A stretch of 42,212 nt of DNA from Pseudomonadota bacterium (GTDB taxonomy: Bacteria; Pseudomonadota; Alphaproteobacteria; Acetobacterales; Acetobacteraceae), in NCBI GenBank assembly GCA_021782435.1, contig JAJXVA010000003.1, positions 1 through 42,212 of the forward strand, read 5' to 3'. Below the pieces are notes generated by a model. It saw only the letters and a program-made list of their open reading frames with translations. It made no database searches and was not told where the DNA came from. Positions within the stretch are counted from its first letter, which is position 1; the number at the start of each line of letters is the position of its first letter. Shown piece after piece: positions 1 to 3,649 of this stretch. A program made the translations under genes and the position numbers.

Positions 1-630
1 TCTCTCCGGGCCCGCGCGCAGCGCCTCGTCACGTTCGACCGTCATCACTTCTTCGGACGGTAAAATCTCCGCCGGTGGCGGTTGCCGTACCGCCAAAGCC
101 TGCAAACGCCCCCCACCCGCGTGCGCCATCAGCCGCGTGCCGGCCACCAGAAGGCCGTGCGCGTCCCACGGCCGGTCCAGCACCGCCACCACCACCGTGC
201 CCATGCCCTTCTCCGCCGTCTTCGCCGCCGCCGCGCGCGGACCATGCAGCCTTGCCGCGCTCAAATGCCCCGCCGTCACCGCCATCAGGCACAGCACGAG
301 CGAAAGCCCGACATTACCCGCCGCCTGAGCCACCCGCCCATCACGCGCAAGATCCAGTGTTTGCAGACTGAACGATGAAAATGTGGTGAAGCCGCCACAT
401 ACCCCGATCATCACGAAGGCGCGCAGATCCGTGGGCACAGCGAAGCGCCCGTCGCTGGTGGTCAGGGTTCCGAAAAACCCGATCACGAACGAACCGACGA
501 CATTGATCAGGATCGTACCCCAGGGAAATTCCGGCCCGGTCAGCCGCGCGACCGCGATCCCGACCCAGGCCCGGGCCACACTGCCCAACGCCCCCCCCAA
601 GGCCACCACCAGATAGAACAGCACCCTCAC
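1..630 (-). CDS. crcB: Fluoride ion transporter CrcB fused to a C-terminal universal-stress-protein-like domain (partial, runs off the window start)
   Basis: Hand translation of the reverse strand from GTG at 630 (alternative GTG at 624, better spaced from AAGGGG) stays open to base 1: VRVLFYLVVALGGALGSVARAWVGIAVARLTGPEFPWGTILINVVGSFVIGFFGTLTTSDGRF...LRAFVMIGVCGGFTTFSSFSLQTLDLARDG...ARLHGPRAAAAKTAEKGMGTVVVAVLDRPWDAHGLLVAGTRLMAHAGGGRLQALAVRQPPPAEILPSEEVMTV. GxxGSxxR, GTxxxNxxGSFxxG and GxCGGFTTFSxFS are CrcB hallmarks. Not in the supplied ORF track (GTG start, no stop in window). Confidence 0.92.
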   Translation of the reverse strand, partial: MRVLFYLVVALGGALGSVARAWVGIAVARLTGPEFPWGTILINVVGSFVIGFFGTLTTSDGRFAVPTDLRAFVMIGVCGGFTTFSSFSLQTLDLARDGRVAQAAGNVGLSLVLCLMAVTAGHLSAARLHGPRAAAAKTAEKGMGTVVVAVLDRPWDAHGLLVAGTRLMAHAGGGRLQALAVRQPPPAEILPSEEVMTVERDEALRAGPER

Positions 631-707
631 CCCCTTCTTCCGGTCGGACACAGCCGCAACAATTCCCGGGCAAGGGCGCGCAGCTCCCACCGCGGGCCGC
701 AGCCGCG

Positions 708-778
708 CACGGCAGGAGTCATCAGCCTGCCAGACTAAGAGCTCCGGTCAGGCGGTTTCGGGGGACTCCATCCCCATC
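708..778 (-). promoter_or_regulatory. Fluoride riboswitch (crcB RNA motif) aptamer
   Basis: Reverse strand: GGGGATGGAGTCCCCCGAAACCGCCTGACCGGAGCTCTTAGTCTGGCAGGCTGATGACTCCTGCC. P1 GGGG/CCCC enclosing ATGGAGT, AAACCGCC, P3 GCCTGaCC...GGCAGGC, conserved CTGATGACTCCT; loop GGAGTC can pair with GACTCC (pseudoknot). Followed about 80 nt later by crcB. Confidence 0.9.
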
Positions 779-1521
779 ACGCCGGTCATACCGCTTCGTA
801 ATCCGCCGAGCAAATGCCCGAGCAGTGCCAGATCCTCGGGGCGGGATAGCCGATGGTCGGCGTCCTTGATCAGGGTCAGGCGGACATCCTCGCTGGTCAG
901 CCGCTCGGCCAGGGTCAGGCTGCGCTGCCAAGGCACGTCGGGGTCGCGCTGACCGTGCAGAATGCGCACGGGCACGCCCACTCCGATGGGCGCGCGCAGG
1001 AGTAGGTGTTGCCGGCCTTCCTCGATCAGGGTCCGGGTGATCGGCGTTGGCGGACCATAGGCGCTAGGCACGCGCAGCACGCCGGCGCGCAGCAGCATGG
1101 CGCGCTCGTCCGGCATCATCGCGTCCCACATCAGATCCTCGGTGAAGTCCGGCGCGGGGGCCAGCAGCACCAGCCCGGCGATGCGCGCCGGCGCGGCGAG
1201 CGCGAGGTTCAACGCAATCCAGCCGCCCATGGAACTGCCGACCAGCACCACGCGCGCCGCCGGCATGGCGTGCAACACCGCGCGCGCGTCGTCGGTCCAG
1301 CGGCCGATCGTGCCCTGTTCAAACGCGCCGCCACTTTCGCCATGGCCGGAATAGTCGAAGCGGGTGAAGCCGCCCCCGCGCGATGCGCACCAATCGGCCA
1401 GGAATTCGGCCTTGGTACCGCGCATGTCGCTGGCGAAGCCGGGCAGGAACAGCACCGCCGGGTCTGACCCCGCCATGGCCTCCACCGCAAGCCGTACTCC
1501 GTGGCTGATCACCGCGACCAT
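748..1521 (-). CDS. Alpha/beta hydrolase
   Basis: ORF from ATG 1521 (MVAVISHGVRLAVEAMAGSDPAVLFLPGFASDMRGTKA...); GHGES, nucleophile elbow GSSMGG, C-terminal DADH. Ends in the riboswitch (GMESPETA*). Confidence 0.88.
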   Translation of the reverse strand: MVAVISHGVRLAVEAMAGSDPAVLFLPGFASDMRGTKAEFLADWCASRGGGFTRFDYSGHGESGGAFEQGTIGRWTDDARAVLHAMPAARVVLVGSSMGGWIALNLALAAPARIAGLVLLAPAPDFTEDLMWDAMMPDERAMLLRAGVLRVPSAYGPPTPITRTLIEEGRQHLLLRAPIGVGVPVRILHGQRDPDVPWQRSLTLAERLTSEDVRLTLIKDADHRLSRPEDLALLGHLLGGLRSGMTGVMGMESPETA

Positions 1522-2720: not shown

Positions 2721-3649
2721 ATCAACCGCGCATTCTCGTCATCCGCCATTCGGCGCTGGGTGATATCGTGCAATCCTTCGCGCCTTTCGCGGCGATCCGG
2801 GCGCATCATCGCGATGCCCGGGTAACATTGCTGACGACCGCTACCTATGCCGCCTGGCTGGGTCGGGCGCCGTGGTTCGATGCGGTAGAGGTGGATACGC
2901 GGCCGGGACTGCTCGATCCGGCTGGGCTTGCGCGGCTGCGGCAGCGGCTCATCGGCCATGACCGGGTTTATGATTTGCAGACCTCGACCCGCTCGACCCG
3001 GTATCGATGGCTGGCGGGGCACGCGGAATGGTCAGGCATCGGGCGTTTCGCCTCCCATCCGCATCGCAACCCTGAGCGCGACCACATCCACACCTATGAG
3101 CGCCAGCGCGAACAATTGCGCGATGCGGGGATAGGGGTGGTGCCGGCGCTCGCGCCCGAGGCGCTGGCGCCGTTGACCGCGCCACCTGGGTTTGCGTTGC
3201 CGCCAGGGCCGTACGCCGTGCTGGTGCCGGGGGCCGCGCCGCACCGACCCGAGAAACGCTGGCCGGACGCGCATTTCGTGGCACTGGCCGCCAGCCTGGC
3301 GGCGCGCGGCCTGGCGGTGGTGATCGTCGGCACCACAGCTGAGGCACCACTCGGCACCGCCATACGCCAGGCCAAACCGCGGGTGATGGACCTGACCGGG
3401 CGCACCTCGCTGCCGGAACTGGCCCATGTGCTGGGCCAGGCCGCACTGGTCGTGGGCAATGACACCGGGCCGATGCACCTGGCTACCGCCTTTGCCCGCA
3501 AGGCGGTGGTGCTGTTCGGCGGCGCGTCCAACCCCTCGCTGACCGCCCCGCGCTACCCGGATGGCGGCTGGCCCATTATTGCCTCCGCGCCGCATCTGGC
3601 CGACTTGCCGCCCGAGAGGGTTGCGGCCGCCCTGGACTTGACGCCATAG
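2717..3649 (+). CDS. Glycosyltransferase family 9 (heptosyltransferase-like)
   Basis: 310 aa; ILVIRHSALGDIVQSF, LVPGAAPHRPEKRWP, VVGNDTGPMHLATA; ATGA overlap with upstream gene. Confidence 0.92.
   Translation: MNQPRILVIRHSALGDIVQSFAPFAAIRAHHRDARVTLLTTATYAAWLGRAPWFDAVEVDTRPGLLDPAGLARLRQRLIGHDRVYDLQTSTRSTRYRWLAGHAEWSGIGRFASHPHRNPERDHIHTYERQREQLRDAGIGVVPALAPEALAPLTAPPGFALPPGPYAVLVPGAAPHRPEKRWPDAHFVALAASLAARGLAVVIVGTTAEAPLGTAIRQAKPRVMDLTGRTSLPELAHVLGQAALVVGNDTGPMHLATAFARKAVVLFGGASNPSLTAPRYPDGGWPIIASAPHLADLPPERVAAALDLTP

Follow-up and report, generated by a model that had tools for sequence, protein, structure and literature searches.

The window (the whole 42,212-nt stretch of DNA that was analysed) carries at one end a hydrolase gene whose last codons run into a fluoride riboswitch aptamer, which is followed by crcB. 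These genes and features, all on the reverse strand, are as follows.

1..624 (−): crcB (fluoride exporter), likely start GTG 624–622, runs off the contig end; PF02537 and same-genus copy
625..705 (−): leader, from the aptamer to the crcB start, with a predicted stem over the ribosome-binding site; predicted folds
706..784 (−): fluoride riboswitch aptamer (RF01734); full-length covariance-model match
715..723 (−): GATGACTCC, 3′ pseudoknot strand; covariance-model match and element positions
725..753 (−): P3 hairpin (GCCTGACCGG...TCTGGCAGGC); arms 753–744 and 734–725
748..750 (−): hydrolase stop TGA, its T the fourth base of the P3 5′ arm; ORF and element positions
748..1521 (−): serine alpha/beta hydrolase, 257 aa from ATG 1521, like ABHD10 and 3llc; Pfam, orthologue and structural relatives
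751..758 (−): conserved AAACCGCC segment; covariance-model match and element positions
760..775 (−): P1 stem-loop GGGGATGGAGTCCCCC, its loop bearing the pseudoknot strand GGAGTC; encodes part of the hydrolase tail
785..813 (−): promoter-like TTGCTC-17-TATGAC, in the last hydrolase codons; −35 at 813–808, −10 at 790–785

A complete fluoride aptamer upstream of crcB

The aptamer matches RF01734 over the full length of the model (window 784–706 (−), model 1–64, 49.6 bits, E = 6.5e-11; cmscan), above the gathering threshold of 34 bits, and is the single match across the window's genome, a fragmented, 82% complete assembly. The original prediction had placed a fluoride riboswitch at 708–778, the core of this match, and the Infernal search that it proposed as a check thus returned a significant hit. 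The set of RF01734 elements is complete, comprising the P1 stem-loop, ACCGCC, P3, GATGACTCC and the pseudoknot that joins the P1 loop to the 3′ strand, in which, as predicted, GGAGTC is exactly complementary to GACTCC (by inspection of the sequence). Chance occurrences of the P1 stem-loop expected in the window number 0. Downstream on the same strand lies the fluoride-resistance gene that accompanies this riboswitch, crcB, which had also been anticipated: its frame matches PF02537 at 2.5e-28, and comparison with the same-genus copy places its start at about 624 (−).

Read from its sequence, the aptamer is predicted to be a standard crcB-type fluoride riboswitch. Like other RF01734 riboswitches, it has all aptamer elements, crcB directly downstream and, as in its relatives, a promoter-like element just upstream. 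It differs from them in lying over the 3′ end of a protein-coding gene upstream of it and in a P3 loop arm that is longer than in most related aptamers.

The hydrolase ends inside P3

The upstream frame is a real gene, because it matches Pfam Hydrolase_4 at 1.1e-20, has a same-genus orthologue that is 79% identical and has solved relatives, the closest being 3llc, 8trf and the mitochondrial acyl-glucuronide esterase 6ny9. We considered a dehalogenase, which would release fluoride, and set this reading aside: the nucleophile motif, read from the sequence, is GSSMGG, with a serine, and the solved relatives include esterases.

The 3′ end of the frame, 777–748 (−), reads ATG GGG ATG GAG TCC CCC GAA ACC GCC TGA, exactly as first described, so that P1 and AAACCGCC are coding and the 5′ arm of P3 contains the TGA at 750–748. 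ATGGGGATGGAGTCCCCCGAAACCGCC encodes the last nine residues, MGMESPETA, and the hydrolase tail GMTGVMGMESPETA, of about 14 residues, is a private extension into the aptamer; the same-genus hydrolase stops earlier.

This arrangement had led to the proposal of a possible coupling between hydrolase translation and fluoride sensing. Under such coupling, hydrolase and crcB would share a transcript, ribosomes ending at the P3 TGA would block aptamer folding, and induction of crcB would need both fluoride and low hydrolase translation. The geometry is compatible with this, since a ribosome terminating within P3 would cover P1 and the P3 5′ arm, and the two genes share a strand, a search of the sequence between them having found no terminator. 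There is also a precedent in the metE leader of M. tuberculosis, in which translation within a B12 aptamer affects downstream expression: removing the start of a uORF increased expression by over tenfold and left B12 sensing in place (PMC11260477). There, as here, a single sequence serves as aptamer and as translated frame, but the metE frame is a short leader uORF with a shown lowering effect (PMC11260477), whereas the frame in the window is the end of a full gene and is not known to affect expression.

Conservation of the junction

Three comparisons bear on whether the overlap is maintained. First, the match to 29 hydrolase loci of other genomes ends at about query residue 230–250, beyond which these loci have varied, unrelated ends. 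Hydrolase relatives from named genomes point to Acetobacteraceae. Second, a search for crcB in the examined flanks of the same 29 loci gave no match. Third, in G081, the sole other genome of the genus that was compared, the hydrolase (C267:6710–7435) and crcB (3106–3483) are on the same strand but separated by 3.2 kb and by other genes, and the hydrolase C-terminus, LVAELMGS*, is about 14 residues short of the window's. Because the other orthologues have neither the overlap nor a crcB nearby and the G081 genes are 3.2 kb apart, the hydrolase–crcB junction is, on these sequences, private to the window's genome among the genomes compared. The window's genome (an 82% complete assembly) gave no close orthologues of two tested intervening G081 genes, and in it the SDR gene found beyond crcB in G081 is located elsewhere; the junction may have arisen either by loss of a block in the window's genome or by gain of one in G081.

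In G081, crcB is preceded by GGGGATGGGGTTCCCC, a P1 stem-loop that has no expected chance match and lies at 3534–3549 (−) of locus L070. A search for RF01734 upstream of this crcB gave no match even at E = 5, the rest of the aptamer beyond P1 being missing. The reduction of the aptamer to P1 suggests loss of the switch in that genome.

A junction seen once could also be an artefact of assembly or base calling, in which the real hydrolase stop is earlier and a one-base shift near the end brings a TGA into frame before the aptamer core, leaving no overlap. The window's junction does rest on one contig of a fragmented, 82% complete assembly, and a TGA is present just before P1 in another frame. 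The frame is clean, however, the protein can be aligned with its family almost to the C-terminus and the aptamer is intact, and we consider such an error very unlikely.

The privacy of the layout to one genome also weighs against the aptamer acting on the hydrolase itself. Fluoride-bound RNA at the 3′ end of the hydrolase mRNA could stabilize that mRNA or impede its last codons or termination, making the hydrolase level responsive to fluoride, and the aptamer would indeed be part of that mRNA if transcription passes the stop. A translating ribosome would unwind the aptamer, however, and, to our knowledge, known fluoride riboswitches act on downstream genes; an effect of this kind appears highly improbable.

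A promoter-like element at the aptamer

A promoter-like element lies at −29/−6 relative to the start of the aptamer match, where related aptamers typically have one. Among 91 family aptamers, TTG[ACG][CG] clusters at −27 to −31 from the match start, with 45 occurrences. A two-box model fitted by expectation maximization (EM) to the 90 other family aptamers, with the window sequence held out, gave TTG(A/C)C, 17 nt, TANNNT; 86% of these 90 score above the 95th percentile of control segments, a figure that is optimistic since the model was fitted on the same sequences. The score of the window at −31..−27 is reached by 57% of family aptamers versus about 2.3% of control segments. The window's copy is weak, an element as good being found anywhere in 51 nt in about 11% of control segments.

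This moderate evidence predicts a crcB transcription start at about 779–777, at the 5′ end of the aptamer, and such a start would leave the hydrolase off the crcB mRNA. Most likely, crcB has its own promoter inside the last hydrolase codons. The proposed coupling is thus unsupported: neither the same-genus relative nor any other orthologue examined has the overlap, the protein tail is private, and the promoter-like element at the aptamer suggests crcB transcripts free of the hydrolase. The serine motif GSSMGG and the esterases among the solved relatives suggest no fluoride-releasing role. We regard a translation-coupled riboswitch as unlikely, and there is only a slim chance that aptamer folding is gated by ribosomes finishing this unrelated upstream gene, such that crcB output would depend on fluoride and on hydrolase translation alike. 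Ribosome interference with the aptamer on read-through transcripts is possible.

The crcB leader

Between the aptamer and crcB (625..705), a search for an intrinsic terminator found none, and in predicted folds a stem covers the ribosome-binding site of crcB. Translational or Rho-type control therefore appears more likely than intrinsic attenuation. Constrained folding, with a model that does not handle pseudoknots, gave no clear ligand-dependent change, the ribosome-binding site being unpaired at 0.22 versus 0.25.

The CrcB frame of the window extends beyond the CrcB domain until cut by the contig end, and the same-genus crcB has no such extension. Homologous sequence is found in the extension of a CrcB–UspA fusion in G002, where Pfam recognizes CRCB plus Usp, and in UspA-like proteins encoded by G014 about 2 kb away from a fluoride riboswitch.

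Tail codons and the aptamer subtype

Frames near-identical to the MGMESPETA stretch are present in relatives, and the subtypes of the aptamer offer an account of them. Among the 67 family aptamers parsable by a pattern, 20 have AT before P1, and in 17 of those 20 a (G/A)A linker follows P1. The AT prefix and the (G/A)A linker look like one extra P1 pair, and the hydrolase tail codons would therefore follow RNA structure; the stretch coding for MGMESPETA is the consensus of the aptamer subtype, apparently translated in a chance frame. CA-prefixed aptamers have TT after P1 in 8 of 10 cases, and the two bases 5′ of P1 thus covary with the post-P1 linker across the family's fluoride aptamers (AT with GA/AA, CA with TT).

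The same prefix places an AUG two bases 5′ of P1 in 22 of 84 relatives versus 0–2 at other offsets. We considered that this might mark a leaderless mini-frame beginning at the 5′ end predicted for the mRNA, and rejected it: the frames range from 8 to 189 codons in length, and AT tracks the post-P1 linker as an extra P1 pair would.

A probable standard switch with a probably incidental overlap

We consider it probable that crcB is controlled by a standard fluoride ON-switch that has its own promoter, and that the hydrolase overlap is incidental, the product of a private rearrangement and not a novel mode of regulation. That rearrangement would have made the crcB control region directly adjoin the hydrolase 3′ end; with the ancestral hydrolase stop lost, the frame would have run on for about 14 codons to the first stop, which by chance lies in P3. 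From a promoter buried in the last hydrolase codons, the crcB mRNA would begin at the aptamer 5′ end, and rising fluoride would turn on the downstream CrcB exporter through a translational or Rho-type expression platform.

Bacterial genomes contain neighbouring genes that overlap and have internal promoters. The window resembles them in having the control region of one gene inside the end of another, and differs in that the overlapped element is a structured, ligand-binding RNA. Here a full protein-coding gene ends in such an RNA, which makes the locus a clean, small example and would make it a natural construct for asking if ribosomes traversing an aptamer spoil its sensing. It also illustrates that gene rearrangement can superimpose coding sequence on RNA structure with no demonstrated function.

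Rarity among fluoride aptamers

Frames of at least 70 codons that end within the aptamer are present in 21 of 90 other family aptamers and 8 of 30 phylum-wide. A Pfam search of 25 such frames gave 0 matches; it left out L091, L106 and the frames of L242, and would miss genes without a Pfam match. These frames look like chance frames of G+C-rich DNA. Among 121 fluoride aptamers, a survey of better-scoring loci in which gene overlap was counted by Pfam support, the window is the one clear case of overlap with a recognizable gene, and 0 of the 120 others were shown to overlap one. In the titles and abstracts of the open-access literature, we recognized no report of a fluoride riboswitch overlapping an upstream gene, and a plasmid search returned only crcB and hydrolase relatives at 60–80% identity.

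Fluoride riboswitches are numerous in several genomes of the family (G094, G182, G253 and others), at 7 to 14 per genome, and some genomes carry them as close divergent pairs, for example at 472–532 (−) and 710–775 (+) of G168:C4.
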